NCBI RefSeq assembly: GCF_016595525.1
Contig: NZ_JAENII010000014.1
Location: forward strand, 1-64,000
Length of the DNA stretch: 64,000 nt
Direction: 5' to 3'
DNA from: Haloferula rosea
Lineage (GTDB): Bacteria > Verrucomicrobiota > Verrucomicrobiia > Verrucomicrobiales > Akkermansiaceae
The position numbers and the translations under genes were made by a program. The notes below the pieces were generated by a model. The model did no database searches, was not told where the DNA came from, and saw only the letters and a list, made by a program, of their open reading frames with translations. This document shows positions 2,289 through 40,234 of the stretch, one piece after another (position 1 is the stretch's first letter; each line of letters begins with the position of its first letter).

Positions 2289-4004
2289 TCAGCGGGACAC
2301 CGCGGCATGGATGTGATCGAGACCTTGGCGAAACATCCACGCCCGCTCGGTCGCATCCTCAATCTTGCGGATTCGCTCGATGAGCGAGCCCATCGCCTGG
2401 CGGACACTGGAGTCCATCTGCTCGTCCTTCGCGAGTTCCACCAAACAGGCCTCGTAGATCTCCGCGCACTTGGCGTGGTCACCGCGATTGAAAATCGGCA
2501 CCCCCTTGTCGATCGCCGCCTGAATCCGGTCGGCCGGGGCCATGGCCGTCTGCTCACAGCTCGTGCAGGATTCACATGCTTCCGATTTCTCGGCAGGCAG
2601 CAGAACCTTGTCGATCACATGGATCACTCCGTTGTCGCAGCTGATGTCCGTCTTGAGGATCGTCGCCCCGTTGACCTTGAACAGACCCTTGTCGATCGTG
2701 AAACCGAGCTTGTCACCATTCAGTGCCTTGGCCGATCCAGCGTTCAATGCGTCCCCTGCCGACACCTTGCCGTTCACGGCATGCAGCATCAGGATCTCAC
2801 GCAGCTTGTTCCGGTTCTCCGGCTTCAGCAGTGACTCCACCGTCCCCTTCGGCAAGGCCTTGAAGGCCTCATCCGTCGGCGCAAGGATCGTGAGAGGGGA
2901 ATCACCCGCCAGCGCGTCGCTCAGACCCGCCGCCTCGATGGCCGCAAGCAGCGTCTTGAACTTGCCGGCCCGCTTGGCCACGCTCGCCAAATCCTTCTTC
3001 GGCTCCGGCGGCAGGATCACGGAATCAATCACGTGGATCACCCCGTTGCTTGCCTCGATGTCCGCGTCGACAAGGCTGGCATCGTTCACCCGCACCTTGC
3101 CTTTGGAGAAAGCGATCTTCACCGGCTCGCCCAATACCGTCTTGGCACTCCCGGCCTTCAACGCCCCCGACAGATCCACTGCCCCGGGCACGACGTGATA
3201 TTTCAGGATCGCCTGAAGCTTCTCACGGTTCTCCGGCTTCAACAACGACTCCACGGTTCCCTTGGGCAGCTTCGCGAATGCCTCGTCGGTCGGCGCGAAC
3301 ACCGTGAAGGGGCCCTTGCCCTGCAGCACCTTGACCAGCTTTGCCTCGGTCAAGGCCGTAGCCAGCACCTTGAAGCGCCCGTCAGCGAGCGCGAGCGCCA
3401 CCACATCCTTCGAGCCCGATTCCTTGGCACCATAAGTGCGGATCCAATCGACCTGCAGCTCGAACGGCCCGGCCTTCTTGTCACCCAACAGCAATCCGAG
3501 ACGACTGATCTTCGCCGGGTTGAATTTCTGATCCTTGAGCTTCATTCCACGGAAGCTGCCGGTGAAGTCGTCGAACGGGATCTTCACTTCCGTCCACTTC
3601 CCCTTGGTGGTGGGAAACTCGGCCATGAAGGAAACCTCCATCCCACGGAAGCGAGCGTCCGTGCTGAAGCGGATCTGGTAGGTCCTGCCATCTCCCTTCA
3701 CCCGGGCCACCAGACCCTCAGCATCGCCGAGATCCATGCTCAGCTTCTCCGTCCGCAGCGAGGAAAACCCGCCGTTGTTCTCGAGCGAGAGCTTGCCCTT
3801 GAAATTGAGCACTCCGTCCTTCGACACCTTGAGGTTTCCTTTCGAGAGCCCTCCCATCACTCCGTCATCCACGACGCGCCAACCGAGGGACTCCGCCTCC
3901 TTGGGGTCGAATTCCGCAACGGAATGCTTTGCTCCTTGGGCTGGAAGCCCGGCGAAACCAAGGCACGCAATGGCCATCGGGATGGAATACAATTTCTTCT
4001 TCAT
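2289..4004 (-). CDS. Secreted CIA30-like plus two FAS1 (fasciclin) domains
   Basis: 571 residues. A signal peptide (1-25, ending PAQGA) is followed by a CIA30-like beta-sandwich at about 28-190 (WRVVDDGVMGGLSKG, then the pattern FTGSFRGM...LGLLLGDKKAGPFELQVDWI). Two FAS1 domains follow at about 198-335 and 340-470, each with the FAS1 hallmarks (FTVFAPTDEAFAKLP, ILKYHVVPG, NGVIHVID). The helical C-terminal tail of about 95 residues starts with a cysteine-rich CESCTSCEQ. FAS1 domains are known as adhesion or matrix-binding modules; the partner here is unknown. It lies downstream of a small lipoprotein gene and a four-FAS1 gene on the same strand, so this is a fasciclin cluster, though a hairpin at 4098-4126 separates it from the lipoprotein gene. 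Confidence 0.88.
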   Translation of the reverse strand: MKKKLYSIPMAIACLGFAGLPAQGAKHSVAEFDPKEAESLGWRVVDDGVMGGLSKGNLKVSKDGVLNFKGKLSLENNGGFSSLRTEKLSMDLGDAEGLVARVKGDGRTYQIRFSTDARFRGMEVSFMAEFPTTKGKWTEVKIPFDDFTGSFRGMKLKDQKFNPAKISRLGLLLGDKKAGPFELQVDWIRTYGAKESGSKDVVALALADGRFKVLATALTEAKLVKVLQGKGPFTVFAPTDEAFAKLPKGTVESLLKPENREKLQAILKYHVVPGAVDLSGALKAGSAKTVLGEPVKIAFSKGKVRVNDASLVDADIEASNGVIHVIDSVILPPEPKKDLASVAKRAGKFKTLLAAIEAAGLSDALAGDSPLTILAPTDEAFKALPKGTVESLLKPENRNKLREILMLHAVNGKVSAGDALNAGSAKALNGDKLGFTIDKGLFKVNGATILKTDISCDNGVIHVIDKVLLPAEKSEACESCTSCEQTAMAPADRIQAAIDKGVPIFNRGDHAKCAEIYEACLVELAKDEQMDSSVRQAMGSLIERIRKIEDATERAWMFRQGLDHIHAAVSR

Positions 4005-4097
4005 TCTGGCTGGAAGGACGCATCGGATCGGCCCTCCGCAAGCAGGAAAATGAATTCGTCCATTTAGCCCGACTCGAACGCCCCCTAACCAACAGAA

Positions 4098-4126
4098 ACG
4101 GCGGGACCCAACAGGGGCCCCGCCGT
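4098..4126 (-). terminator. Probable rho-independent terminator after the small lipoprotein gene
   Basis: GC-rich hairpin with arms ACGGCGGG and CCCGCCGT around a short inner CCC/GGG pairing and an AACA loop. On the minus strand it is followed by a weak T-rich tract (TTTCTGTT). It lies about 25 bp past the stop codon of the gene at 4150-4650. Confidence 0.65.
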
Positions 4127-4149
4127 GAATCCAATCGCTGGAAACCCGC

Positions 4150-4650
4150 CTACTGCATCGCTCCCTCCGCGATCAGGTGCTCTTCGAGCTTCAGCGCCAT
4201 GGTGGCGAGATCAGGTTGCCAGCTCAGACCCAGCTCACGGCGCAGGTCCGCGAGGACCGTGGTCTTCAGACCTTCATCCACCGCTGGATGGGCCGCGACC
4301 CAGAAGAGCGAAGGAAGGCGGACCATCTCGCCACGACCAACGAGGTCATCGGCGAAGACATAGAGCAGATCCAGCTTCTCATCAGCGGACTCCAACGTCT
4401 CCACCGCCTCCATCGCCAGATCGAGGTCGGCATCGGCAGCCTCCAACAGGAGCATCCGGAACGCCTCCGCCCTGCTCTCGGCCGGAAGGCGCCCAATCGA
4501 GTGCAACGATGTCCCGTTCAGCTCATCCGTGGCAGAACCGCGCGACGACAGCTGACGGACTTCCGGAGCGGACTCGTCGGTAACGGGCTCCTGCTTCTCC
4601 GAGCAGGAGGCCACGGCCACACAAACCAGCAAGACGTGGACGGGTTTCAT
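4150..4650 (-). CDS. Small predicted lipoprotein, unknown function
   Basis: 166 residues with a short lipoprotein signal: a hydrophobic stretch, then the lipobox-like ASC at residue 16, so it is predicted to be lipid-anchored in the envelope. The mature part is acidic and helical (EAFRMLLLEAADADLDLAMEA and similar), suggesting a helical-repeat fold. I do not recognise a family. It sits between two FAS1-domain genes on the same strand, only 21 bp after the upstream FAS1 gene, so it is probably cotranscribed with that gene. Confidence 0.8.
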   Translation of the reverse strand: MKPVHVLLVCVAVASCSEKQEPVTDESAPEVRQLSSRGSATDELNGTSLHSIGRLPAESRAEAFRMLLLEAADADLDLAMEAVETLESADEKLDLLYVFADDLVGRGEMVRLPSLFWVAAHPAVDEGLKTTVLADLRRELGLSWQPDLATMALKLEEHLIAEGAMQ

Positions 4651-4671: not shown

Positions 4672-6459
4672 TCAGCGGGCCAGGTCGGGCTCCATCCTCG
4701 AAGGGGTGGGCGGGATCAAGACATCGCGGATGATATGGATGACTCCATTGTCAGTCTCGATGTCGGCGACTTCGACGCGCACTCCATTCACTTCCACCAC
4801 GTTGCGGTTGAAGAAATTGAAGAAGAAGAAAAAGAAGCGGGGTCTCCGGTTCTCGATGGTCACGTCAGGGCCCAGCGCAGTCGGCACCGCTCCCTCGGCC
4901 AGCAGTTCGGAAGCCGTCCGACCTCCGGGTGCCACATGATACCTCAGCACGTCGGCCAGTCCGCCGGTTGGATCGTTCAGCAGTCCGTCGAGCACGCCCT
5001 CGGGCAAGCGATCGAAGGCATCATTCGTCGGTGCGAACACCGTGAGGTCCTGATGCGCGTCAGCCACCAATCCGTCCAGCCCGGCGAGTTCGAGAGCCGT
5101 TCCAAGGGTCGACAGTTCCGGATTGGACCGCACGAGGTCGGCAATGGTCACCGGCACCGGTGAGATGACATCTCCCATGACGTGAAGCACACCGTTGGCA
5201 GCATGGAAGTCAGGGTCGACCACCGGGGCCCCGTTCACCGTCACACCCACGTGGGGATCGATGGCAACAAGGAGCTTGTCCCCCGCCAAACTCGTGAGGA
5301 TCTGACCGTCGAAGAGATCATTGGCATTCAGGGTGCCGGGCACCACATGGAGGCGCAGGACGTCGGCAAGGGCACCGGTCGGATCATTCAGGAGCGAAGT
5401 GAGCACCTCCGAAGGAACATTCCCGAAGGCACGGTTGTTCGGAGCAAATACGGTGAACGTAGGACGTCCACGGGTGCTGTCGAAAGTCGGCGCGAGCCCG
5501 GCATCACCAAGCACCTGGACGAAGGTGCTGAGGTCCGGGTTGTTCGATGCCACATCGACCAGCGACTCCGGACCGCGCGGCACGAGAACCTGATCGACCA
5601 CATGGACGATCCCATTCGAAATGCCTGCATCGGTCCCCACGATCGGAACGCCATCCACCGCCAGCGACCAGGCGTCTCCGGAAATGCGGAGCTTGTTGGT
5701 CAGCGTCTGGACGGAACCTTCCCCGAGCAGCTCGCTCTGGTCGAATTCACCACGGGCCACGTGGTTCAGGAGGACCCGCTGCAGCAGCCGCCGGTTCGAT
5801 GCGATGGCCTGAAGATCAGCCGCGGGCACCGCTTCAAAGGCGGCATTCGTCGGCGCGAACACCGTGGCCGAATCCAGCCTGGCGAAGGTCCGTGTGAGGC
5901 GGGCCTGCTGGATCAGCCCCGCAAGCGTGCTGAACTGCGGATCGGCTGCGACCGCCTCCAACAAGGTCGGTTGGTTTCCGACGGCGGGATCAAGGACCGC
6001 GTTGATCTGATGAATCACCCCATTGTCCGCCTCGATGTTCCCGAAGGTGACGCGGGCATTGTCGAAGTTGACGAAACGATAGAAGAAGAACCGGCTCAGG
6101 CTGACCCGGACCGGGGAATCCGGCAGCAAGGTGGGAAGCAGCCCGTTGGCAAATTCGTTGGTTCGTAGTTCGTTGGGCAGGACGTGATACTGCAGGATAT
6201 CCGCAACATCACCGGCCGGCACATTCTGGGCGAATGCTGCATTCGTGGGCGCGAGGATCGTAATCCCGTGGGCATTCCTCAATGTGCTCTCAAGACCCTC
6301 CTGCTGGACCAGGCTGACCAGTGTTGAGAACTCAGGTTTGCTTGCCAGCACGTCGACGATGTTTTCGGCGCTGGCTGAGATGACGAGACCCAGAGCGGAG
6401 AGGGATGAGGCGACCCACCCTGTCAGGCTTCTGCGGAACGGTTTGTGCAATGGTTTCAT
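4672..6459 (-). CDS. Secreted protein with four FAS1 (fasciclin) domains
   Basis: 595 residues from the ATG at 6459, chosen because a clean signal peptide follows (positive N-terminus, WVASSLSALGLVISASA). Four FAS1 domains in series are marked by ITILAPTNAAF, ATVFAPTNAAF, FTVFAPNNRAF and LTVFAPTNDAF, each ending in a GVIH motif. This predicts an extracellular adhesion or matrix-type protein. The last domain contains a phenylalanine-rich strand with six consecutive Phe (RFFFFFFNFFNR, encoded at about 4808-4838), and the first has a milder version (RFFFYRF). No Shine-Dalgarno sequence is visible. An upstream in-frame extension to 6792 lacks any signal peptide and is rejected. Confidence 0.88.
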   Translation of the reverse strand: MKPLHKPFRRSLTGWVASSLSALGLVISASAENIVDVLASKPEFSTLVSLVQQEGLESTLRNAHGITILAPTNAAFAQNVPAGDVADILQYHVLPNELRTNEFANGLLPTLLPDSPVRVSLSRFFFYRFVNFDNARVTFGNIEADNGVIHQINAVLDPAVGNQPTLLEAVAADPQFSTLAGLIQQARLTRTFARLDSATVFAPTNAAFEAVPAADLQAIASNRRLLQRVLLNHVARGEFDQSELLGEGSVQTLTNKLRISGDAWSLAVDGVPIVGTDAGISNGIVHVVDQVLVPRGPESLVDVASNNPDLSTFVQVLGDAGLAPTFDSTRGRPTFTVFAPNNRAFGNVPSEVLTSLLNDPTGALADVLRLHVVPGTLNANDLFDGQILTSLAGDKLLVAIDPHVGVTVNGAPVVDPDFHAANGVLHVMGDVISPVPVTIADLVRSNPELSTLGTALELAGLDGLVADAHQDLTVFAPTNDAFDRLPEGVLDGLLNDPTGGLADVLRYHVAPGGRTASELLAEGAVPTALGPDVTIENRRPRFFFFFFNFFNRNVVEVNGVRVEVADIETDNGVIHIIRDVLIPPTPSRMEPDLAR

Positions 6460-6706
6460 GGTATGGGGTTGATTCTTGTATCTACATGGTAACGACCACC
6501 CAGAGTCGTTCAGTCGTTCTTCGGCGCAAATCCTTTTCTGCTGGTCCAAGCCGCTCGAGCCACCGGACCCCGGTTGCAGGGGATACCGGGAACCCAACGA
6601 CGCAAGGACCAGAGGATGAAAAAGTGGATTTTCGATCCGATTCACTCGCCATGCCCCGGTGGGGTTCGCGATTGACGGGGAGGGATTCGGAGCTTCCATG
6701 GTCCTC

Positions 6707-7661: not shown

Positions 7662-9074
7662 TCATTCCTCGCGACCTGCGTCAGTTGCCGGAGTCACCGA
7701 CCATCCTTCGACGCGCACTTCACCGTCCACACCGCAGGCGAACTCCAGAGGCTCCAGCAGGCCCTGCGGACGATCGGCCTTCGGATTGGCATAGTCGTCC
7801 TCGTCCGCCACGCCGGTCAGACCGTTGTTCTCGATCCCGGCATTCAGGCTTTCCTTGTTTCTCAAGAGGGGGCGGGCCACGCCTTCGCACTCGATCCGGT
7901 TGTCACGGATCACGATCGTCGGAAAACCTGACTCAGGATGGAACCCGAACAACCCGTCCTTGCGAGGCGTCCCCGTGGTCACCGCCTTGATGTGGTTGTT
8001 GCGGACCACCAGGTTCGAGAACGGCTCATTGATCCAAATCACTCCCCTGCCGGGATTGCGGACCAGGTTGTTGTGGAAAACCGCAGGCCCTTTTGCTGCA
8101 GCCTTGCCGAATCCCGAGATCAGGTTGCCGTGGTCATTCGCCGGGTCGAAGTCGAACAGATTGTGGTCGATCTCCACCCCGTTCCTCACGAACTCGATGG
8201 CATAACTGTTCTGAAACAGATTGTGATGAATGTGGAAGGTCCGCCCGCTCGTTGGCACCGGCCCGCCCGCATGCTTCGGAATCGAGACTGTGCCATGCAG
8301 GACGTTGTGGTCGATCTCCACGTCCTCGTCGTTCTCGAACGGAAACTCGATCGAGAAGTTCGTCTCGATGGTATTGTGATGGATCCGCAGCCGCTTCCCT
8401 TGGCGCCCCTTGATGCCATAGTAGTGTTCGTTCGGAGCCGTCTTCGTCCGCAGGAAGCGGTTGTTGAAGATCTCGCTGTCCTTGATCCAGATCGCAAAAA
8501 TCCCACCGCCCGTGATGCCTCCCTTCACTCCCGGCTTGCCACGCTCCCAGCGCTGACCGGCATCGATGAACACGCAGTCGTGAATGGACGCCCCGGTCGT
8601 CGAATAAGTACGGATCCCACAGTAGAGGAAATCCTCGATCTTCAGATGATCCAAGCGCAGGTTGCTGTTCCCCGAACCGAAGATCGCTCCATGCAGGCGC
8701 TCGCCTGTTAGATGGAGGTTGGAAATCGTGATTCCTGACCCCTTCGGCTCGAGGTGGATCAGGTAGCCACTGCGGTCGAACTTCTCGCGCTGGGTTTCCG
8801 GGTCCGGCAGTGTCGCCGGATTCCCCTCCCAGCCCGCCTCTCCGGTGAGGGTGGTTTGGTCCATGCCGGCCCCACGGAGAGTCACCCCGGATGCAACCTT
8901 GAGCGGAGCCTTCAGTTCGAACCTCCCCGGTCCCAGCTCGACCACATCGCCCTCACCGGCCTCCCCGGCCTCCCCGAGCACGCGAATGAGCTCATCCACA
9001 TCCGCAATCGGAGCTGCCTGCAGGAAACCTGCCATCATGCTCCACAATCCCGTCCATTGCATTCGACCCCACAT
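7662..9074 (-). CDS. Secreted right-handed parallel beta-helix protein
   Basis: About 470 residues with a short signal-like N-terminus (GLWSMMAGFLQAAP). It is followed by a pectate-lyase-like opening (ELIRVLGEAG, VVELGPGRFELKAPLKVASG, VTLRGAGMDQTTL), then many beta-helix coils rich in N-H-N motifs (IHHNTIETNF, IDHNVLHG, IHHNLFQN, VFHNNLVRN). Predicted extracellular polysaccharide lyase or carbohydrate-binding protein; I see no motif that proves catalysis. The start is uncertain between 9113, 9074 and 9062. Convergent with the lysozyme-inhibitor gene across 34 bp. Confidence 0.82.
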   Translation of the reverse strand: MWGRMQWTGLWSMMAGFLQAAPIADVDELIRVLGEAGEAGEGDVVELGPGRFELKAPLKVASGVTLRGAGMDQTTLTGEAGWEGNPATLPDPETQREKFDRSGYLIHLEPKGSGITISNLHLTGERLHGAIFGSGNSNLRLDHLKIEDFLYCGIRTYSTTGASIHDCVFIDAGQRWERGKPGVKGGITGGGIFAIWIKDSEIFNNRFLRTKTAPNEHYYGIKGRQGKRLRIHHNTIETNFSIEFPFENDEDVEIDHNVLHGTVSIPKHAGGPVPTSGRTFHIHHNLFQNSYAIEFVRNGVEIDHNLFDFDPANDHGNLISGFGKAAAKGPAVFHNNLVRNPGRGVIWINEPFSNLVVRNNHIKAVTTGTPRKDGLFGFHPESGFPTIVIRDNRIECEGVARPLLRNKESLNAGIENNGLTGVADEDDYANPKADRPQGLLEPLEFACGVDGEVRVEGWSVTPATDAGREE

Positions 9075-26418: not shown

Positions 26419-26652
26419 GTGGACGGTGTTGCACCAGAGAAAGATCGCTCGCACTGGGCCCAGGCCAAGTTGAGTTCTTTCGACGAAGTAAGAGCGTATC
26501 GGATCCAGCAATGGCAACAAGCCGGTTGCTCGGCACGACTGGCTGGCACGTGGGAGTTGGTCACCGACTACTGGATCAAGAAACAAGGTAAGCATCCTGA
26601 TGAACTCCGACTTCAAAGATCTGTTACGCATCTTCGCCGAAGAGGGGGTTGA
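26419..26652 (+). CDS. Small hypothetical protein upstream of a nucleotidyltransferase
   Basis: About 77 residues if begun at the GTG 26419 (an ATG at 26383 lies upstream). Helical and Trp/Gln-rich (DRSHWAQAKL, EVRAYRIQQWQQAGCSA, WELVTDYWIKK). It overlaps the nucleotidyltransferase gene by 53 bp, an arrangement often seen for small partners encoded before minimal nucleotidyltransferases. I do not recognise a named family; an antitoxin-like or accessory role is inferred from context only. Existence as a real gene is moderately supported by codon-level protein-like composition. Confidence 0.5.
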   Translation: MDGVAPEKDRSHWAQAKLSSFDEVRAYRIQQWQQAGCSARLAGTWELVTDYWIKKQGKHPDELRLQRSVTHLRRRGG

Positions 26653-27049
26653 GTATCTCACCGTGGGTGCTTACGCCGTCATTCACTACACCCAGCCACG
26701 CTACACCAAGGACATCGATCTTTGGATCAAGCCGTCGGTCGAGAATGCGGAACGAGTCGCGAGAGCCTTTCATCGCTTCGGCCTTCCACTGGTCGAGGTC
26801 ACTCAGCAGGACTTCGAGCAAGAGGGACTCCAGTATGCGATCGGCATGCCGCCGTGCCAGATCGACTTTCTCACATCGCTACCGGGGGCGCCCTCTTTTG
26901 ACGAAGCTTGGTGCCGACGCAGCAGTGCCGAGGAAGACAACATCCCGATCCACTTTCTCGGCAAATCCGATCTCGTTTCCGCGAAGAAGACCGCAGCTCG
27001 CCCGCAGGACCTCGCTGACTTGGATGAACTCGAACGAGCCGGGGGATAG
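26600..27049 (+). CDS. Minimal nucleotidyltransferase (MNT/DUF6036-like)
   Basis: 149 residues. The core motif is VEYLTVGAYAVIHYTQPRYT then KDIDLWIKPS. The G(A/G)-x(n)-R-x-T-x-D-x-D pattern of polymerase-beta-type minimal nucleotidyltransferases is present (YTKDIDLW), with a third acidic strand at CQIDFLTSL. Related proteins act in type VII-like MNT/HEPN toxin-antitoxin systems or as stand-alone AMPylators; no HEPN partner is next to it. It is part of the short module bracketed by the 62-bp repeat. Confidence 0.8.
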   Translation: MNSDFKDLLRIFAEEGVEYLTVGAYAVIHYTQPRYTKDIDLWIKPSVENAERVARAFHRFGLPLVEVTQQDFEQEGLQYAIGMPPCQIDFLTSLPGAPSFDEAWCRRSSAEEDNIPIHFLGKSDLVSAKKTAARPQDLADLDELERAGG

Positions 27050-31513: not shown

Positions 31514-31619
31514 GGAACAAGGCTCTGACGACCGATACCAGTGAAGCCAGCCGCACTTGCCTCAAATCGGGAGCGCGGCTTTGCAAGCCGCTTCAGAGGA
31601 CGAGGCTTGAAGAAGTGGG
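31514..31619 (+). other. fic-tail-like remnant and GCGGCTT hairpin
   Basis: 31514-31543 resembles the last codons of fic (AACAAGGCTCTGACGACC here against GCAAGGCTCTGACCACC there). 31575-31591 is a hairpin GCGGCTT-TGC-AAGCCGC preceded by GGAGC. This mirrors the order seen at 29045-29190, before repeat copy 1. Confidence 0.6.
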
Positions 31620-31863: not shown

Positions 31864-33219
31864 ATGATCAGCGTTGACAAGTGGCGTATCGGAGAAATCA
31901 AACAACACCTATCAGACGCAAGGTTGTTGCTGGATCCCGAATACCAGCGAAAGGCAGTTTGGACATCCAAGACGCAGACCCTGTTTATTGACTCCTTGGC
32001 AAGGGGTATTCCAGTGGGTGCAATTACCGTATTCGAAGATGACTCGGGACCCTACAAGAAATACGAAGTCATCGATGGTCGGCAGCGATTGACGGCGTTG
32101 AGCGAATATTTCAAAGGAGAACTCGAGATCCGGGAAAGCGTGATAACCGCACAGGTAGAATCCGAGGATGATCTCTCCGACGTCGACTCGGAGCTCGCGG
32201 AAAAAGTGATTGCAGCAGGGACTTACAACGAGCTCGCTCTGGAGGAGCGAATGGCGCTCGATGAATACGAGTTCCCAGTATTCAAGGTCACGGGCAAGAG
32301 AGCCGAAGCCGTTCGGGCCTTTGTCCGGATGAATACGAACCTTTACAGTCTTAAACCACAGGAAATCAGAAATGCCGTTTTTAACAAAACGGCATTCTTG
32401 GATGCTGCGATCGGACTGTGTGAGACTCTCACAGGAGAGCTTGCAAATAGCGACTCATACTTCATCGACGTCGGCGTCGTAACAAGCGAAGCGTGGAAGC
32501 GGATGCAGGATGTGCAGTTTAGCCTAGAATGCATGATTCTTGTGCTCCACGGCCCCCAGCATCGAAGAGATACGATCGACCATTACTGTGATCTATACAG
32601 GGAGCCCAAGGATGCTCAGAAGGCACTCGATGACGCGATCAAGTTCTTGCGAAAGGCCTTCGAGCAAATCTGGGAACTTTGTGAAGGACAGAAGATTCAA
32701 GATCTGAATTTTCCGAAAAACGCAGAAAATGACCTCTACGCCCTCGTCGGCGCGCTCAAAAGAAGGGGGCTCATTACACAAGCGCAATTAAAGAAAGACG
32801 GAGCAGAGCTACGGGATACAATACGTGAGTTTAGGCGACAAGTTCAGCTTTACATCGCCATGGTCCGTGGTGAGGGGGAAGGCGAGGATACATATGCGGA
32901 AGAGGTTAAGGACTACGCGACGACATTCTTGGGTGGCCAAGTGAACTCTGAAAAGAAGCGAGCAAGTCGCATTGAAGTGTTCACAAACGTTATCAATGAC
33001 GTAATCGCGGAAATCGATTCAAGTTCGTTTTCGGAGTTCCAGCGCTGTCTAATTTGGGCCCGCTCGAAAGAAAAGATCTGTGCTCGGTGCGGCGAAGAGG
33101 TAGCTTACAAGGAATTTCACGCCGGCCACAAGGTCGCTCGGGCGCACGGAGGGAGATCGGTCGTGGCCAATGGACAAGTTGAGCATGCCAAGTGCAACCA
33201 GAAAGCGGGTATAAACTGA
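31864..33219 (+). CDS. DUF262 (GmrS/ParB-like) protein with C-terminal HNH nuclease domain
   Basis: 451 residues. The N-terminal DUF262 core is DPEYQRKAVWTSKTQTLFID, then SLARGIPVGAITV and YEVIDGRQRLTAL (the D-G-x-Q-R motif shared with ParB/Srx-type NTPases). The middle is helical. The C-terminus (about 405-451) is a zinc-containing HNH: CARCGEEV, FHAGHKVARAHGG, then N-x-Q-x-E-HAKCN. Same architecture as GmrSD-like and related antiphage nucleases that cut modified or foreign DNA using nucleotide energy. Alone on its strand; convergent with the ATPase gene, so probably an independent system. Confidence 0.87.
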   Translation: MISVDKWRIGEIKQHLSDARLLLDPEYQRKAVWTSKTQTLFIDSLARGIPVGAITVFEDDSGPYKKYEVIDGRQRLTALSEYFKGELEIRESVITAQVESEDDLSDVDSELAEKVIAAGTYNELALEERMALDEYEFPVFKVTGKRAEAVRAFVRMNTNLYSLKPQEIRNAVFNKTAFLDAAIGLCETLTGELANSDSYFIDVGVVTSEAWKRMQDVQFSLECMILVLHGPQHRRDTIDHYCDLYREPKDAQKALDDAIKFLRKAFEQIWELCEGQKIQDLNFPKNAENDLYALVGALKRRGLITQAQLKKDGAELRDTIREFRRQVQLYIAMVRGEGEGEDTYAEEVKDYATTFLGGQVNSEKKRASRIEVFTNVINDVIAEIDSSSFSEFQRCLIWARSKEKICARCGEEVAYKEFHAGHKVARAHGGRSVVANGQVEHAKCNQKAGIN

Positions 33220-33253: not shown

Positions 33254-34630
33254 TTATGCGGAACAATTGCCCAATCGTGAGAGCTGAAAGGCAATCTTCA
33301 CAACACCGCGCAACGAGAATCTGATAGAACCTCCTTCCTGTTCAGGCTCCTTACAGAATACCAAGTTCCTTCTGCTCAAGTCGGAGAGCTTCGCCTCTAG
33401 CCAATCAGCAGATTCCGCTCCGACACGTTCGTAGTCCGCCGGCAAGATTTCGCCGCACTTCCCCACCGCTTCTAGCAGGCGAATGAGCTGATCCTCAAGG
33501 CGGAACCCTTGGACCTCCAACTCCGCGACATCGCCAAGGATCTTGAACGCCATATCTTGATCAATCTGATTCTCGACCAGATCAGTACCGATGGAGTTAT
33601 TGAGCTCTTCTGCGAGCATTTCTCGGGTTGTTCCCTTTCCCTCGCTTGCTAAGCGCTTTATTGCTTCGATCCGCATCCGTTCAACAAACTTTGTGCAAAC
33701 TGTATCACTATACTTGAAAACGAATCTCATTTCTCCGCCAGATGCATCATACAGCAGCCTATGCACCTCCATCGGGAGCGGGGCCTTGCCCTCAGCAGCA
33801 GCGGAATGAAAGCGACTCACTCGTTTCGCTATAGCGGTGTCCATCTCCTCCATTGGAACCGGCAGAATGTCTATTCCCGAACCTTCGATCCTCTCAAATA
33901 CTCTCGGATCAAGCGTCTGAATTAACCTTGCGAGCCCCGCCTGACCGATCAAGATCCACCAAATGCCGCTTAGCGCAAAGAAAGTATCCCTAAAGAATAT
34001 AAGAACGCTCTGAAGCTCAGAGGGCTTGAGGTTTTCTAGATTGTCAAACACAACGATCGCGCCATCAAACCCAAGTTCATTTGAGACGTCAGCAACGATT
34101 GCCTCGAAAGCATCTGCAATCACCCCTGCGCCTGCGTCCTTCACAGGAGGGAGGTCTACGCTTCTCCCCAAGCTGCCCCCAAAGCCTGCAATGGTTAGGC
34201 CGACATTCACGCTTCCGCCACCTCGTTGAGTTAACCACTTACCGATCTTTTTGGTCTGGGAGGGCAATTTGCGACTTGCTGAAATACAATACGCATCGAC
34301 GGATCTGAACAAGCTGTCGAGTGCGCCAAAAGCCAATTCAAGGGCGGTTGCCCCAGGGGCTACCGGCAAGAGCTTGCGGGCAGCCATCAGCTTAGGGCCG
34401 AAAAGCGCACGCTCAGATTCGAGCAAAAACTGCTGGACGTTCAAAAAGCTCGTCTTTCCGACACCGGGCGAGCCAGAGATAACCACAACACCTTCAGCTC
34501 CTTTGTCAAGGATCGTGCAGAGAGAAGCTACTTCGTTGTCTCTGCCAACGAGGAGGTCAACATCCTCTTCGCGAACAAACAGGGGATTTGTATTATATGG
34601 ACTTTCCCTGAATCCTAGATTCTCCCACAT
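33254..34630 (-). CDS. STAND/AAA-type P-loop ATPase
   Basis: 458 residues from the ATG at 34630 (the frame also allows TTG at 34642). Residues about 15-60 (ESPYNTNPLFVREEDVDLLV) lead into Walker A GSPGVGKTS, and Walker B is GAIVVFDNLENL. Between them lies an unusual Gly-rich stretch GGGSVNVGLTIAGFGGSLGR. WWILIGQAGLARLI looks like sensor 1, and a helical C-terminus with a winged-helix-like end (SDLSRRNLVF) follows. Resembles ORC/Cdc6-like or STAND ATPases found in antiviral loci. No effector domain is fused and no partner gene is adjacent on its strand; the closest downstream gene converges on it. Confidence 0.75.
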   Translation of the reverse strand: MWENLGFRESPYNTNPLFVREEDVDLLVGRDNEVASLCTILDKGAEGVVVISGSPGVGKTSFLNVQQFLLESERALFGPKLMAARKLLPVAPGATALELAFGALDSLFRSVDAYCISASRKLPSQTKKIGKWLTQRGGGSVNVGLTIAGFGGSLGRSVDLPPVKDAGAGVIADAFEAIVADVSNELGFDGAIVVFDNLENLKPSELQSVLIFFRDTFFALSGIWWILIGQAGLARLIQTLDPRVFERIEGSGIDILPVPMEEMDTAIAKRVSRFHSAAAEGKAPLPMEVHRLLYDASGGEMRFVFKYSDTVCTKFVERMRIEAIKRLASEGKGTTREMLAEELNNSIGTDLVENQIDQDMAFKILGDVAELEVQGFRLEDQLIRLLEAVGKCGEILPADYERVGAESADWLEAKLSDLSRRNLVFCKEPEQEGGSIRFSLRGVVKIAFQLSRLGNCSA

Positions 34631-35488
34631 CAAGCTGTGCAAATTAGATCAGAACTAGGCAATCATCTATTCCACCGTCTAGCAAGGCAATTGAAGAGCA
34701 ATTCTCGCCCTTTGCTACAATCCCTAGACACCAGATAGATTCCTTCTGCTCAGATTTCGTGGTATGAGCACTAGGATAGTCGCTCATGGCACGCAACTAA
34801 CATTCGTTCGATTCGACGGACAACTGCAAATGCTTCAGGGCATTGCGGCAACGAGCGCTCCTAAACTCTGGCAACCTTCGATCCACGCCCTCCCAACTGC
34901 GCTACTACTAAGCAGCCCCTTCTCTGAATGGCTTACACATTCTCTTGCCATAACTCGCTTCTCGTCGAGGTAGCGCTGTAGCAACGGGGAAGCCGCGCCA
35001 AAAAAAATCGCCTACAAACACGGCAAGTCTTTCAGGTTTAAAGACAAAATTGGGACGGTCCAACAGGGACTATTGTCTGAGACAACCTGCAAACGAGAAC
35101 TTCTTGCAGAAGCGTCCCATCCGGAAATCCTTCAAGCGGTTTCCGCTAAAGGAAATCGAGGTCATCCGTTTTGACCGCCACGCTGCACAGAGGAAATACA
35201 CCATATTCAAGAATTCTAGATCAAGTTAGCAGGTGATGGGTATGGGCTATTGATCTTGCTGTCATACATCCCTGATTGCTGCCGACCGGCAAACTGCTCA
35301 TCGCCTAGATATTCCAAGTCGCAGCTAATGCTTTGGCCGAGAACAGATGATAGGTGATCACGCCACAGTACGGAAAGCTGGCAAGGCATCGATCCAGAAC
35401 AAATTGGGTAATTTTTGTTAGACCGCCAACACTGCCAGCGGATTCCTTCCACCAGCGAGCACCCATCGATTCGATTGCTAACAGATCT
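34631..35488. other. 858-bp gap in the defence island, no gene assigned
   Basis: AT-rich, with only short open frames. One stretch of about 65 codons without a start (about 34980-35175, plus strand) has a Lys-rich, protein-like composition (KKIAYKHGKSFRFKDKIG) and may be a decayed gene. A minus-strand frame at 35216-35452 resembles nothing known. The promoter of the ATPase gene should be at the left end. No RNA gene, terminator or strong repeat was recognised. Confidence 0.5.
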
Positions 35489-36670
35489 CTAGGTCAAATC
35501 GTAAATCTTTGGGGCGCCGAGGAACAGCTCGTGAAGCTCACCTCGCGCTACCTTGAACTGTGGACCTCGCTCATGCACTCTGGTCGGAAGCATCTTGATC
35601 ATGTGATCGACAGTGACACTTCCCTCTGAAAGCAACCGGTCGAACTGAATGTTCGAAGGACGCTTCGTATGTGTCACTTCGGTTAGTTGGAAACACGGCT
35701 GCGCCCCTACCTTCAGCTCGTCCGCACGGATCCAGAATGTCTCCCGGTGCTTCTCCTGGAGCTTGACGTGAAGGGTTGACAGTCTCCAGGCACAGACGGC
35801 TTTGTCCCCAGCGCTGGATCTTGCTAGCTCATGAAGCACCTCCGCGTCCTCGTCCACCCTAAGTAACAGGCCCTGAGAATTCGGAGATTTTGACGAAACC
35901 GTGCAGTAGAGTCTCAAGCCGTCTGGCGATGGATACCCAAACCGTTCAAGCATCTCACGAAAATCCCCGACATCGCTAATGCGCCAATCTGGGACTTTCG
36001 CGAATAGACCGTTTCTGGTCTTCGAACGGGACCGCTTGGACTTTAGTTCGATGCCCTTGTAGTCAGGCGACTGGCTGGAATTGATCTGGATTCCGAGCGC
36101 TGTCTCGATCGTCCGTCCAATTGAAGTATCGCCGGTGCCATCCGCTGGAATCGGACCAGAGGCGGCAAGATCCCGCAGCTTGCCGAGCAGCTCTATGCCA
36201 ACAGCTTCGTAATTCAGTCGTAGGGATTCAAGCAACCTGTCCCAGTCGGTCTCCGGAGCTTCCAAGTTAACCTCATCGTCCTTCGTCAGGTTGGCGAAGT
36301 GAGGGACTCCATCATGGAAGAACACCGCTAATACATCGCCCGGATCAACAAAGCGCCTCAACCGCGACAACCAAAACCTAGGGTCTCCCTTCTTAGTCTT
36401 CGGTCGGTAGAGGAAAATCGGGATCCCAACCTTCTGGCCGTGATCGAAGATCACTGCGTCGCGAGTGACTTTGTTTGCTTCCCCCTGCCCTTGCGTGTCG
36501 TAGCAGTGAAAGCCGTTGTCACGGAACAGCTCCCGGTGTGGAGCGGTCGCATCCAGAATGTTCTTTTGAAGTCCAGTCTCGGTCACGAAGAGCAAGGCAC
36601 TCTCAAGTCCAGCCTCATTGATATCTCGGAGCCGCGAGGACTCACTCTTGTCTAGCGGCCGTGAATTCAT
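35489..36670 (-). CDS. MvaI/BcnI-family type II restriction endonuclease
   Basis: 393 residues. The catalytic region DTSIGRTIETALGIQINSSQ, then SPDYKGIELKSKRSRSKTRN contains the D-x(n)-E-L-K signature of the MvaI/BcnI family, whose known members cut CCWGG or CCSGG as monomers. The extra N-terminal domain (about 1-150; FWLSRLRRFVDPGDVLAVFF) is common in annotated relatives. It overlaps the upstream methyltransferase gene by 29 bp, so the two form one restriction-modification unit with methyltransferase first. The recognition site here is inferred to be a CCNGG-type sequence. Confidence 0.87.
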   Translation of the reverse strand: MNSRPLDKSESSRLRDINEAGLESALLFVTETGLQKNILDATAPHRELFRDNGFHCYDTQGQGEANKVTRDAVIFDHGQKVGIPIFLYRPKTKKGDPRFWLSRLRRFVDPGDVLAVFFHDGVPHFANLTKDDEVNLEAPETDWDRLLESLRLNYEAVGIELLGKLRDLAASGPIPADGTGDTSIGRTIETALGIQINSSQSPDYKGIELKSKRSRSKTRNGLFAKVPDWRISDVGDFREMLERFGYPSPDGLRLYCTVSSKSPNSQGLLLRVDEDAEVLHELARSSAGDKAVCAWRLSTLHVKLQEKHRETFWIRADELKVGAQPCFQLTEVTHTKRPSNIQFDRLLSEGSVTVDHMIKMLPTRVHERGPQFKVARGELHELFLGAPKIYDLT

Positions 36671-37958
36671 TGGAACCGGAGAGAATCGATTTCATGTGTT
36701 TTGCAATGTGTTGGGCAAGGAAGACCGGAACCGCATTTCCAATTTGCGTGTACTTCGGAACTTCCCGGTCCCATAAGCCCGCGTCCGGATCTCCAGCCCG
36801 CCGACGCCCACCCGTCGTCCTTGGTCCGGCAAACTGATACCAGTCGGGAAACGTCTGGATTCGTGCCCACTCCCGGACACTGGGCACACGGGGCTGAGCA
36901 AAATGAACGTAGTCGTCGGGCAAGGAGGTCGCAGTAATGTTCGGCCCGCTTCTGTTCCAGATCTCGGGCAAGACACGCTGGGCAAACTTCTTGGTCCTCA
37001 TAGACTCCGGAATTTCTCCGTCATTCTTAATCATGTGCGCGAACTTGCTCATCACAGCGGGAGAGTGCTTACTATACTCGTGTTCCGTAAGCGGGGCCCC
37101 CTTACCCGCAACTTTTCCTTCCGGACTCTTTCTTAACCAGCGTTGGAATTGGTTCTGGGCGGCGTGGGGATACCTTTTAGTAATCCCTTTTTCGCGGTAG
37201 GAAGGATCTATGAGGTCTCCGAGCAATTCCGATAGAGTGGGAGCCTTCACGTTGCCCACGGGAATGTAACCAAGGTCTCTGGCATCCCCCCTGCCGAGAT
37301 AAGGAGAGGGATCTTCACTGAAGCCATTCAGCAGGGGGTTGGCTCGTTCGGCTAGCACGTCTTGCCTATAGCCGACAATGACCACCCGTGGCCGATTCTG
37401 CGGCACTCCATAGTCTTTGGCATGCAACAAGTCCCAACCGACGCTATATTCAGGTATGGACTGGAATGCAGACAGGACATCGCGAAAGATCTCGCCCTTT
37501 TTGCCATTCTTGGTCCAGCGCCCAGATAACAAACCCTTGACGTTCTCGAAGAGAAAGGCCCTCGGCTGCAGAAAGCTGACCACCCGAACCATCTCACTAA
37601 AGAGCTGGTTCGAGGGAATGGCATCTTTCTCAACATCAAATGATCGCCGGTGACCTATCCCGCTATACCCCTGACACGGAGGGCCGCCGCAAACGACATC
37701 GATTTCACTGATGCCCTTCAGCCTCCACATTTCGCGAAGCAAGCGGAGGTTGTCGTTCGTTAGGGAGTAAACATCACCAACAGGAACTACATTATCTTTC
37801 GGCCGGTTCATCATGTAGGTCTGGGCGGCGTTTAAGTTGATTTCACTGAACAGTAGGGGCGTGAATCCCTCGAGTTCGAATCCTAGGGATAATCCCCCAC
37901 AACCTGCGAACAAGTCGATCATCGACAGTTGTCGGTCGGTTGAAATGTTATCTTTCAT
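36642..37958 (-). CDS. DNA (cytosine-5) methyltransferase of the R-M system
   Basis: 438 residues with the canonical m5C motifs in order: I DLFAGCGGLSLGFE, IV GGPPCQGYSG (nucleophile Cys95), VI FENVKGLL (Glu139), VIII QNRPRVVIVG, target-recognition region, IX RVPSVREWARIQTFP, X YTQIGNAVPVFLAQHI. It uses SAM to methylate C5 of cytosine in the site cut by the neighbouring endonuclease. The C5 chemistry contrasts with the N4-cytosine enzymes of MvaI and BcnI themselves and resembles Dcm/EcoRII-type partners. A vsr remnant lies upstream. No Shine-Dalgarno sequence is visible. Confidence 0.95.
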   Translation of the reverse strand: MKDNISTDRQLSMIDLFAGCGGLSLGFELEGFTPLLFSEINLNAAQTYMMNRPKDNVVPVGDVYSLTNDNLRLLREMWRLKGISEIDVVCGGPPCQGYSGIGHRRSFDVEKDAIPSNQLFSEMVRVVSFLQPRAFLFENVKGLLSGRWTKNGKKGEIFRDVLSAFQSIPEYSVGWDLLHAKDYGVPQNRPRVVIVGYRQDVLAERANPLLNGFSEDPSPYLGRGDARDLGYIPVGNVKAPTLSELLGDLIDPSYREKGITKRYPHAAQNQFQRWLRKSPEGKVAGKGAPLTEHEYSKHSPAVMSKFAHMIKNDGEIPESMRTKKFAQRVLPEIWNRSGPNITATSLPDDYVHFAQPRVPSVREWARIQTFPDWYQFAGPRTTGGRRRAGDPDAGLWDREVPKYTQIGNAVPVFLAQHIAKHMKSILSGSNEFTAARQE

Positions 37959-38042: not shown

Positions 38043-38074
38043 AAAGATGACAGTTGCGAACCCGCGTCATCTTT
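38043..38074 (-). terminator. Hairpin with 9-bp stem at the end of the RHH gene
   Basis: Perfect arms AAAGATGAC and GTCATCTTT around a 14-nt loop. It overlaps the stop codon of the RHH gene and is followed on the minus strand by TTTTGAGAG-type sequence. It may end the RHH transcript before the methyltransferase gene at 37958. Confidence 0.55.
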
Positions 38075-38291
38075 GGTCAGAGTTACTTGAAGTTGAACTC
38101 TCGACACGTCCGAGAAGAGGAATATCAAGCTGGAGGTATTCCGTGACGGCGTCTCGCACCACCCAGGAGGCGGACACCCGTTTCGACTGTGCGATCCGGC
38201 AAACCTGCTCGTAATCCTCCCGCGGGAGGGTGACGGTAATGCGGGTAGATTCAGTCGCGCCTGAGGGAGTCGTCGTAGGTTTCTGAGGCAT
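38067..38291 (-). CDS. Ribbon-helix-helix (CopG-like) regulator
   Basis: 74 residues from the ATG at 38291. The fold core is STRITVTLPREDYEQVCRIA, then SKRVSASWVVRDAVTEYLQ: one strand and two helices, as in CopG/Arc/MetJ repressors. No toxin gene follows, so it is either an orphan antitoxin or a regulator of the restriction-modification genes, which lie 108 bp further on the same strand. A perfect palindrome sits in its promoter, consistent with autorepression. Confidence 0.85.
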   Translation of the reverse strand: MPQKPTTTPSGATESTRITVTLPREDYEQVCRIAQSKRVSASWVVRDAVTEYLQLDIPLLGRVESSTSSNSDQR

Positions 38292-38326
38292 GACGCATCT
38301 TATTGCATCACTCTGATGCAAGTCAA
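38292..38326 (-). promoter_or_regulatory. RHH-gene promoter with palindromic operator; predicted leaderless
   Basis: Minus strand: -35 TTGACT, 18-nt spacer, -10 TAAGAT, then 5 nt (GCGTC) to the ATG. The spacer is filled by a perfect inverted repeat TTGCATCA-GAG-TGATGCAA (38303-38321). This fits a dimeric ribbon-helix-helix repressor binding its own promoter. Confidence 0.7.
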
Positions 38327-38479
38327 GTTTTGACTGTGGTGAGGCCATTCTCAGGAGTCATGTCCCGAAGGTCGGTCCGTGATTTGTGGCACAACCATTT
38401 TGAATCCAGTCAGGAGTTCCCGATATTCGCCCTTGGGGCTACCCTACCATGCATCCACTGCGACCGCTCCGCGACCAGA

Positions 38480-38641
38480 TCACCTGATGTGAGGAAATTG
38501 ACGATTCCGCGGGCCGTTGACAGTGAAGCGGTAGCCGAGCCGATGGAGCATCGAACGAACGACCCGTTCCGGCTTCGTGTCGCGGCCACGGATCCGCGAC
38601 ATCACCTCGCTGCGTTTCGTTGGGGTGAAGACGTCGGTCAT
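38480..38641 (-). pseudogene. vsr: Truncated vsr (very short patch repair endonuclease) gene
   Basis: 53 codons from ATG 38641 to a stop at 38482. The translation starts MTDVFTPTKRSEVMSRIRGR, then DTKPERVVRSMLHRLGYRF, which is the N-terminus of Vsr, a T:G mismatch endonuclease that repairs deaminated 5-methylcytosine. After about 45 residues the similarity stops, and the catalytic segment (the usual LPGKPDIV and HGCFWH motifs) is absent, so it is inactive. It lies on the same strand upstream of the C5-methyltransferase gene, the normal partner of Vsr. The rest of the gap 38349-38765 holds no other recognisable gene. Confidence 0.85.
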
Positions 38642-38729
38642 GGGAGCAAATTCAAGGTAGCCTCATCTTCGCAACCCGGAAGCAGGAAGTCCTGTTCCCA
38701 GAAACCCCTGCCTCTGCCCTCAGAACCAA

Positions 38730-38751
38730 GCGGCTTGAAAAGCCGCGCTCC
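38730..38751. repeat. GCGGCTT-GAA-AAGCCGC hairpin with GCTCC flank
   Basis: 7-bp perfect stem, 3-nt loop, followed directly by GCTCC. Same element as 40213-40234 (loop GGA) and the reverse complement of 31571-31591 (loop TGC there, GCA when reversed). Confidence 0.85.
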
Positions 38752-38765
38752 GAAGTTCATCGGGC

Positions 38766-40166
38766 TCAATTCATGCAGCAGCGCTTGTATTTCAGGCCGC
38801 TCCCACAGGGGCAGGGGTCGTTGCGACCGATCTTGGGAGCTTCCCGTTCGTAGGTCTCCGCGGTGCTGTAGCCGTAGCCGCCGGAGCCCGCGGCGGATGA
38901 AGGAAAGTCCCCGCCGGACTGGAGTGCATCGCGCAGCATGTGCGCTGCCCGGACGACATGATTGACCTGGATCAATTCCTCCCTGGGGGTGTCGTCGCCC
39001 GGCTGAATGAGATGGAAGGCACAGGCCATCAGGGCTTGATGACCTTCCGAGCGATCCGTGAGGGAGCTGTGCCAACTCATGATGCTGGAAAGGATGCCCC
39101 GACCCCATTCGACTTCCTCCTCCGTCGGGACGCGGGGATCGGACCGCGGTTCGATGGGCGGAACGTAATTCCCCTCATCAAGTCGGCGGATGATGCCGTT
39201 GTGCCAGTTCTGCACGGCGTCGAGAAAGAGCTGGGCTTCTTCCGCATCGCGCCACGCCGGATCGTGGGCGAGGTTCTCGGGATCCCAGATTGAAGGCAGC
39301 CAGCGTGAGGGCGGGACCATTTCAGGGGCTAGGATAGTGCCAAGCATCAAGCCATCGAATTCGGCGAGGCCTTTCACGCTGGGCGGCCCACCGTAAAGCC
39401 CGAGGAAGTAGCGAATGATGCCCGCATCGTCGCCTTCCTGCGGAAGGGGTCCGAGACGCTGAACCAGTGCCTCTTTGGCAAGCTCGGCTTCAAGCTCGAC
39501 CCAATTCGGCGCCGGGCTGGAGCGTTCGGCACGCGCGCCGAGCGCGATCTCCACGTCTTCCAGATCACCGTTGATCGAGACATCGACGAGGTTCTGCTCG
39601 AAGGCCTGCCGGATTTCCGGAAGGTAGCGGTCCTGCTTGAGCTCGATGAGACCGGCGATGATGAGTCCTTTCAGGAGCCGGTGAGAGGGATCTCCCCGTA
39701 GCACCTCGACCTGCGCCCCAAGCGCCGCATCCCGCTCGATGCCCTGTCGGGCAAACTCAGTCAGGGCGCTGGCGAATTCGAGAAGGATGGCTTCGTGGTC
39801 CCGGGCTTCCTTCAGTTCGGCGATGAGTTCGGGGACCACCTCCGGGCCAGCGGCAATCATGAGGTCGGCAAACCGCACCATGAAGAATTCGTCATCGACG
39901 CGGCATGCCACCCGAAGTTCCTCGATGATGAATTCGCGCCCTTCTTTCCCTCCGAAATACGCGAGGATGCTCCAGGCGTGCATGAGTGCGGCGTCGGTGA
40001 CCTCCTCTTCCTCCTCCTCGAGTTCGAGGTCCATCCATTGCTCGATCAGGCCGACTGCTTCCTTCTCCCCGAAACCTTGTTCGGCATAGAAGGTCGCAGG
40101 CATGACCCGGTCCGGTTCCGGGGCAGGGAGATCGAGCAGGCGTTCACGGAGATTCTTCACCGCCAC
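38766..40166 (-). CDS. SEC-C zinc-motif protein with HEAT-like helical body
   Basis: 466 residues from a GTG start. The C-terminus carries the SEC-C motif NDPCPCGSGLKYKRCCMN, the zinc-binding tail also found at the end of SecA and in YecA-type proteins. The N-terminal half is helical with HEAT-like repeats (PELIAELKEARDHEAILLEF, LLKGLIIAGLIELKQDRYL) and a run of glutamates near residue 52. The second part (about 260-430) shows a UPF0149-like layout. Function unknown. Interestingly, the secA of this window lacks the SEC-C tail, but a direct link is speculation. Confidence 0.82.
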   Translation of the reverse strand: MAVKNLRERLLDLPAPEPDRVMPATFYAEQGFGEKEAVGLIEQWMDLELEEEEEEVTDAALMHAWSILAYFGGKEGREFIIEELRVACRVDDEFFMVRFADLMIAAGPEVVPELIAELKEARDHEAILLEFASALTEFARQGIERDAALGAQVEVLRGDPSHRLLKGLIIAGLIELKQDRYLPEIRQAFEQNLVDVSINGDLEDVEIALGARAERSSPAPNWVELEAELAKEALVQRLGPLPQEGDDAGIIRYFLGLYGGPPSVKGLAEFDGLMLGTILAPEMVPPSRWLPSIWDPENLAHDPAWRDAEEAQLFLDAVQNWHNGIIRRLDEGNYVPPIEPRSDPRVPTEEEVEWGRGILSSIMSWHSSLTDRSEGHQALMACAFHLIQPGDDTPREELIQVNHVVRAAHMLRDALQSGGDFPSSAAGSGGYGYSTAETYEREAPKIGRNDPCPCGSGLKYKRCCMN

Positions 40167-40212
40167 AGGATGCGGACATGGGCTCTCCCACGCAAGCCGG
40201 TGGTCTCACGAA

Positions 40213-40234
40213 GCGGCTTGGAAAGCCGCGCTCC
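40213..40234. repeat. GCGGCTT-GGA-AAGCCGC hairpin with GCTCC flank
   Basis: 7-bp perfect stem with GGA loop followed by GCTCC, in the intergenic space between two divergent genes. Member of the dispersed hairpin family. Confidence 0.85.

Follow-up and report, generated by a model that had tools for sequence, protein, structure and literature searches.

The stretch of DNA analyzed here, 64,000 nucleotides and referred to below as the window, contains on the reverse strand, at positions 38641-38480, an open reading frame of 53 codons and a stop, which a preliminary description had read as a decayed vsr gene, the lost mismatch-repair partner of the C5-cytosine restriction-modification (RM) system encoded nearby. 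The questions that this locus raises are whether the frame is indeed a broken vsr, whose vsr it was, and what became of the genome that lost it. The first of these can be answered with confidence. The Pfam Vsr profile PF03852 (cut-off 27 bits) aligns its positions 1-42, out of 74, to residues 2-43 of the translation with a score above the cut-off (46.2 bits, E 4.1e-12). NCBIfam TIGR00632 gives 38 bits (E 1.6e-9), below the cut-off of 97.85 that applies to full-length proteins, and the PADLOC Vsr model matches weakly (13.1 bits, E 0.019). A full-length Vsr HMM, which we built from 16 loci and the Vsr sequence of the related RM locus L028 and ran over the window in six frames at an E limit of 0.1, aligns positions 1-50 to the fragment with 63.1 bits; the best score of this HMM in reversed control sequence (the window and six loci) was 1.3 bits. 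The preliminary description had named an empty sensitive profile search as grounds for abandoning the identification, and the search is far from empty. The catalytic region of Vsr consists of the PD, FWH and WE-like blocks; in the intact relatives, an LPGRPD-like block is followed by the FWHGH region, and at the same place the fragment reads FPHIR and ends. The frame thus encodes, as originally described, approximately 47-50 N-terminal residues homologous to Vsr followed by an early stop, with the catalytic region missing, and its 53-aa product, which would lack that region, is probably inert.

The assembly is a draft in 69 contigs, and an early stop in such a sequence could come from a sequencing or assembly error, that is, a frameshift that conceals an intact vsr. 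However, within the window and at the E limit of 0.1, the full-length HMM finds no Vsr C-terminal half adjoining the fragment in any of the six frames, so that a single missed base is no explanation and the 3' part of the gene is gone. The HMM lists two sites in the whole window, the fragment and a second relic at 35183-34810 (-) that is itself interrupted by several stops and a change of frame, which likewise speaks against an isolated error. The artefact that the preliminary description had allowed for is accordingly very improbable.

The second element of that description, the proximity of the fragment to an apparently complete C5 RM system, stands as well. The C5-cytosine DNA methyltransferase gene (36642-37958, reverse strand) matches PF00145 with 213.8 bits over positions 2-323 of 324, and the gene for a restriction endonuclease of the MvaI/BcnI family (35489-36670, reverse strand) matches PF15515 with 191.4 bits over positions 2-227 of 227. 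The DNA_methylase and MvaI_BcnI domains are therefore both complete, and the two genes are adjacent on one strand, an arrangement that resembles the MvaI/BcnI type II RM systems. In contrast to these, the full C-terminal domain of the window endonuclease is preceded by about 160 additional residues at the N-terminus, which the family domain lacks, and the putative repair partner in the window is decayed; the similarity of the endonuclease to solved structures is weak (R.BcnI, E 0.0034; R.MvaI, E 0.025). The fragment lies on the same strand as the RM genes, with approximately 520 bases separating it from the start of the methyltransferase gene downstream; between the two is a gene for a ribbon-helix-helix protein (38067-38348, reverse strand; PF01402, 30.4 bits), by inference a regulator.

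The GC profile falls at approximately 31.6 kb and climbs at approximately 38.45 kb, delimiting a low-GC island that also includes genes for an AAA ATPase (33254-34642, reverse strand; PF13191, 39.2 bits) and for a defence-like protein with GmrSD_N and HNH domains (31864-33219, forward strand; PF03235 and PF01844; NsnA, 101 bits). The five island genes have a GC content of 0.507-0.547 and a GC3 of 0.553-0.632, compared to 0.622-0.641 and 0.732-0.812, respectively, for the three host genes that were measured. The homologous part of the vsr fragment has host-like values (GC 0.631, GC3 0.787) which, together with the GC step at approximately 38.45 kb, place the fragment at the edge of the island, on its host side. 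The host-like SEC-C/UPF0149 gene at 38766-40166 (reverse strand) is outside the island; it has a homologue (61%) in the congeneric genome G001, where no vsr was found with PF03852. A simple insertion of the island into the vsr from which the fragment derives is rejected: apart from the relic at 35183-34810, the HMM scan of the window (E limit 0.1) shows no C-terminal Vsr match that could be the missing 3' part at the other end of the island. As a separate observation, relatives of a nucleotidyltransferase-like gene of the window (26600-27049) occur close to vsr fragments in G011 (52%) and G024 (71%).

A palindromic repeat, GCGGCTTNNNAAGCCGC, occurs at 14 sites in the 4.68-Mb genome, compared to a single site for the control, and three of the copies are found within 8.7 kb of the window: at 31570-31593, coinciding with the island's left GC step; at 38725-38751, in the opposite orientation, at the right GC step and about 83 bases upstream of the start of the vsr fragment; and at 40208-40234. 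We considered the repeats as the island's own ends, or as marks of a defined mobile element, and rejected both notions because most copies outside the window lie in DNA of host GC content, and an unremarkable 1273-aa ORF, which presumably encodes a protein resembling the alpha subunit of DNA polymerase III, has one of these copies on either side. We regard these sequences as dispersed repeats, possibly used in recombination.

The location of the fragment, on the strand of the RM genes, close upstream of the methyltransferase gene and inside two bracketing repeats, is compatible with the view expressed in the preliminary description, namely, that this is the island's own former vsr that arrived with the island, whereas its host-like GC and GC3 argue against this view. 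We therefore compared the fragment with the vsr genes of the host genus. A PF03852 search of 18 genomes of the genus (one of these, G005, being 61% complete) detected intact vsr genes in nine (G002, G003, G007-G010, G012, G013 and G015; products of 153-166 aa), nothing but broken or cut-off copies in four (G000, G004, G006 and G011; of two pieces in G006, one is interrupted by a contig end), and no match in five (G001, G005, G014, G016 and G017); given that the profile spans only the N-terminal 74 positions, C-terminal pieces are under-counted in this survey. A Dioxygenase_C gene is located within 1 kb of eight of the nine intact copies, and a rhomboid gene accompanies seven (the G002 copy lacks both neighbors, and the G012 copy lacks the rhomboid gene). 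No PF00145 gene was detected within 17 kb of any of the nine, 17 kb being the shortest distance from vsr to a contig end among them (G003); the C5-methyltransferase genes of these genomes are on other contigs or at least approximately 349 kb away on the same contig. With all nine intact copies unlinked to a detected C5-methyltransferase, vsr appears to be mainly a solitary chromosomal gene in this genus. A PF00145 match is nevertheless present somewhere in all 13 genus genomes with any vsr match, as against three of the five without one, although the sample is small.

The fragment is close to these copies, that is, to those without a linked C5-methyltransferase: it shares 68-85% identity with the vsr genes of the genus over up to 47 aa (the best match being that of G011) and, in a tree of 50 aa, groups with 14 genus and family copies with support of 90/89, without a supported place inside the group. 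The pN values in comparisons with its kin are 0.12-0.20 and the pS values are 0.42-0.73; with pS well above pN, the fragment diverged mostly under constraint and was cut late. It does not occupy the usual place of the genus's vsr: the fragment is on contig C5, the host orthologue of the dioxygenase is on contig C11, and no vsr was found beside that orthologue. On balance, the fragment most likely belongs to the solitary vsr type of the genus, and the absence of linkage of its closest kin to C5-methyltransferase genes (nine of nine) is a further point against its having been the partner of the RM system.

The distinction is not absolute, however. Outside the genus, two of 11 vsr-bearing relatives, G027 and G037, have a PF00145 gene directly beside the vsr match, the methyltransferase reading frame in the latter containing stops; in eight others, PF00145 matches are elsewhere, 80 kb away in G051, 196 kb away in G025, and on different, sometimes short, contigs in the rest, and there is no PF00145 match in G048. 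In G027, which belongs to a sister genus of the same family, an intact vsr that is 72% identical to the fragment over 47 residues is convergent with, and overlaps by 4 bases the end of, an endonuclease-like gene with weak similarity (24%) to the window endonuclease, and the latter is followed by a gene for a C5-methyltransferase with an N-terminal HTH domain (L082:7982-11170). Given this linkage to a C5 RM pair, vsr genes of the fragment's type are not always solitary, and the version in which the fragment itself was the RM partner retains some plausibility. This version is also favored by the presence of broken vsr pieces in defence-gene neighborhoods of two genus members: in G011, a cut-short vsr of 103 aa and a second N-terminal piece adjoin a DUF2357/PDDEXK_7 and AAA gene pair, and in G004, a middle piece of vsr adjoins a ResIII/PLD/DUF3427 helicase and an HNH_2 gene. 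Separately, we observed short N-terminal pieces of C5-methyltransferase genes near broken vsr copies at L077:9293-9400 in G011 and at G006:C61:24050-24166 (PF00145 positions 2-37 and 2-40).

The strongest competitor for the role of the lost partner is the second relic, at 34810-35183 on the reverse strand, which was absent from the preliminary description. A PF03852 search of the whole genome (69 contigs, 97.5% complete), a check that the preliminary description had called for, identified no intact vsr and only two matching sites, both in the window: the fragment and 35183-34992 (-), where positions 7-69 of the profile align across one TAG with 21.3 bits, below the 27-bit cut-off; at this level of completeness, an intact vsr could be among the unassembled sequences. 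The more complete outline of the second relic comes from the L028 Vsr, which in tblastn comparisons aligns with it by residues 7-85 (E 2e-10 when 849 bases were searched and 8.5e-8 for the whole window) and, in another frame, by residues 71-129 (E 6e-5 and 0.011, respectively), at approximately 27% identity; the full-length Vsr HMM recovers the relic with 16.1 and 8.3 bits. The second relic is thus nearly full length and more decayed than the fragment, and retains degraded remains of the catalytic region in two frames, interrupted by several stops. It is on the strand of the RM genes, begins approximately 305 bases behind the endonuclease gene, and has a GC content of 0.519. Its site is the one where L028 carries an intact vsr, behind the endonuclease gene, and on the strength of this position the second relic is a likelier lost partner of the RM system than the fragment. 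The claim that the island once had a repair partner and lost it therefore probably holds, with the second relic in this role, and it is the assignment of that role to the fragment that becomes doubtful, considering its host-like GC and its unlinked kin in the genus.

The related RM loci show what kind of a place this is. Eight close relatives of the window system (L028, L029, L030/L116, which share the same genes and count as one locus, L046, L117, L118, L215 and L216) have both genes, with 48-62% identity of the methyltransferases over most of their length; in L117 and L118, the methyltransferase and endonuclease genes are convergent. L118 also has two MvaI/BcnI-like endonuclease genes, a long form (3142-4305) and a short form (5794-6462), that flank the methyltransferase gene. 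A vsr is adjacent in one of the eight, L028, so that carriage of vsr by such systems is not the rule, and a vsr of the fragment's type is found beside none of the eight. In L028, the methyltransferase, endonuclease and intact vsr genes are on one strand, and the first ATG of vsr (7200) overlaps the endonuclease stop; the encoded protein, the homologue of the second relic, matches the solved structures 1cw0, DNA mismatch endonuclease (E 6.6e-15), and 1vsr (E 2.9e-14). When the comparison is extended to 23 relatives of the endonuclease (L028-L050, several of them on short contigs), a classical-type vsr is encountered in L043, next to the related endonuclease gene and convergent with it, and L039 has a doubtful Vsr piece of 12 bits. 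In L215, on an Alisedimentitalea plasmid, the corresponding position directly behind the endonuclease gene, that is, the vsr position in L028 and the position of the second relic in the window, is taken by an HhH-GPD gene (7674-8198) annotated as "hypothetical protein", the product of which has as its best solved match 1kea, "Possible G-T mismatches repair enzyme" (E 2.9e-18); a relative of this protein (42.6%) is encoded at the RM locus L031. The enzyme family differs from Vsr, and the presence of a likely G:T glycosylase in place of vsr suggests that one repair partner can substitute for another at this position. The site of the second relic is thus a place where repair partners occur, though not always.

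Weighing these lines of evidence, we give a probability of about 0.6 to the reading in which the RM island was acquired with its own vsr, now the second relic, and the fragment is a host-type solitary vsr that was cut at the island's edge. Counting against it are the modest identity of the second relic to the L028 Vsr, the gap between this relic and the endonuclease gene, the single vsr among the eight close RM relatives, the linkage in G027, the vsr of L043 and the location of the fragment away from the genus's usual vsr site. The rival reading, in which the fragment came with the island as the vsr of the RM system, keeps its positional arguments and the G027 precedent, but has to contend with the separate relic that already occupies the vsr place of L028 and with the lack of fragment-type vsr genes beside the close RM relatives; we consider it possible and clearly the less probable of the two. 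Under the reading in which the fragment is of host type, the host would have acquired a defence island of low GC, from approximately 31.6 to 38.45 kb, with the GmrSD/HNH, AAA, endonuclease, C5-methyltransferase and ribbon-helix-helix genes, as judged from GC, and the RM system would have brought along a vsr of its own, located behind the endonuclease gene; both the relic and its position are observed, and the partnership is the presumed part. Stops and a change of frame would then have reduced this vsr to the relic seen at 35183-34810. What remains at the island's edge is a vsr 5' end of the type that is solitary in the genus, cut after approximately 47-50 codons, with its kinship, host-like GC and loss of the 3' part directly apparent, and the rearrangement that placed the island may have removed that 3' part.

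The comparison with characterized systems sets the two vsr copies in perspective. Both are homologous to the Vsr of the E. coli dcm-vsr pair, which is intact, in contrast to the broken copies of the window. According to a published account (PMC12907096), vsr and dcm belong to one operon in E. coli, whereas vsrA of Caulobacter is a solitary Vsr-like gene unlinked to the methyltransferase gene scmA. The kin of the fragment in the genus, being unlinked to a detected methyltransferase gene, differ from the E. coli arrangement and resemble that of Caulobacter in their gene arrangement; in the window genome, unlike Caulobacter, the probable host-type vsr is cut short. The same account (PMC12907096) reports that VsrA in the absence of ScmA causes an SOS response and lower fitness, which lends some plausibility to a selective explanation of the losses, compatible with either history of the fragment: Vsr would be costly where its motif mismatches the resident methylation, and both vsr copies would have been discarded for that reason. 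The four of 18 genus members with solely broken or cut-off vsr and the five with no vsr match are in line with this proposal, but plain decay would produce the same pattern and nine of the 18 members keep an intact vsr, so that we consider selected loss unlikely. Slightly less likely still is the broader proposition that VSP repair was lost twice, independently, at one island, once with the vsr of the mobile system and once with a host-type solitary vsr cut at the edge, and that in this genus the sites where defence islands become established are, time and again, those at which solitary vsr genes are disrupted.

Given the completeness of both RM domains, methylation of the genome in the absence of VSP repair is probable, and deaminated m5C would be left to general repair. 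A search with the L215 glycosylase yields a single match in the window genome, a 351-aa ORF with 28% identity that we take, from its appearance, to be MutY-like; the L215 protein itself also matches MutY structures. Judging from the gene complement, this would be a genome without dedicated repair of m5C deamination, be it Vsr or an L215-like glycosylase, if the methyltransferase is active.

The preliminary description went on to predict uncorrected C-to-T decay of the methylated sites. MvaI and BcnI cleave and methylate CCNGG-type sites, which was the basis of the putative choice of sites for a test of this prediction. We calculated the ratio of observed site counts to the maximal-order Markov expectation in 464 kb of the host genome, made up of the window and 20 stretches (400 kb in all) from two contigs, and in six relatives (G002 and G010, 200 kb each; G014, 98.6 kb; G001, 79.1 kb; G016, 120 kb; G008, 100 kb). 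For CCWGG, the ratio is 0.64 here compared to 0.60 in G002, 0.66 in G010, 0.80 in G014, 0.88 in G001, 0.71 in G016 and 0.81 in G008; for CCNGG, it is 0.87 compared to 0.84-1.02 in the six relatives; and for CTNGG, it is 1.01 compared to 0.96-1.09 and, hence, not raised. CTAG is low in all seven genomes (0.12-0.43), and the palindrome with the lowest ratio relative to the other genomes, among those with an expectation of at least 40, is TTWAA, with a small count of 48 observed and 68 expected. The predicted decay is therefore not seen: in 464 kb set against the six relatives, there is no genome-specific signal of decay or of site avoidance at CCNGG-type sites, a result that neither proves nor excludes the loss of repair because the recognition site is putative and the island may be young.

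Overall, the decay at this locus is real and for the most part ordinary; its history is now better resolved, and the arrangement is instructive. Such decay of vsr is ordinary, and what it leaves behind is an apparently methylated genome in which no working Vsr was found. The arrangement allows two kinds of vsr that are usually lumped together, the passenger of an RM system and the solitary gene of the host, to be told apart within a single locus. Should the recurrent breakage of solitary vsr genes prove true, with the two losses at this island and the broken copies beside defence genes of G004 and G011 as its instances, it would leave methylated genomes without Vsr in this genus. With an apparently complete C5 RM system, no Vsr found, and congeners that possess Vsr, this natural genome offers a setting in which the mutational cost of methylation without Vsr would be measurable.
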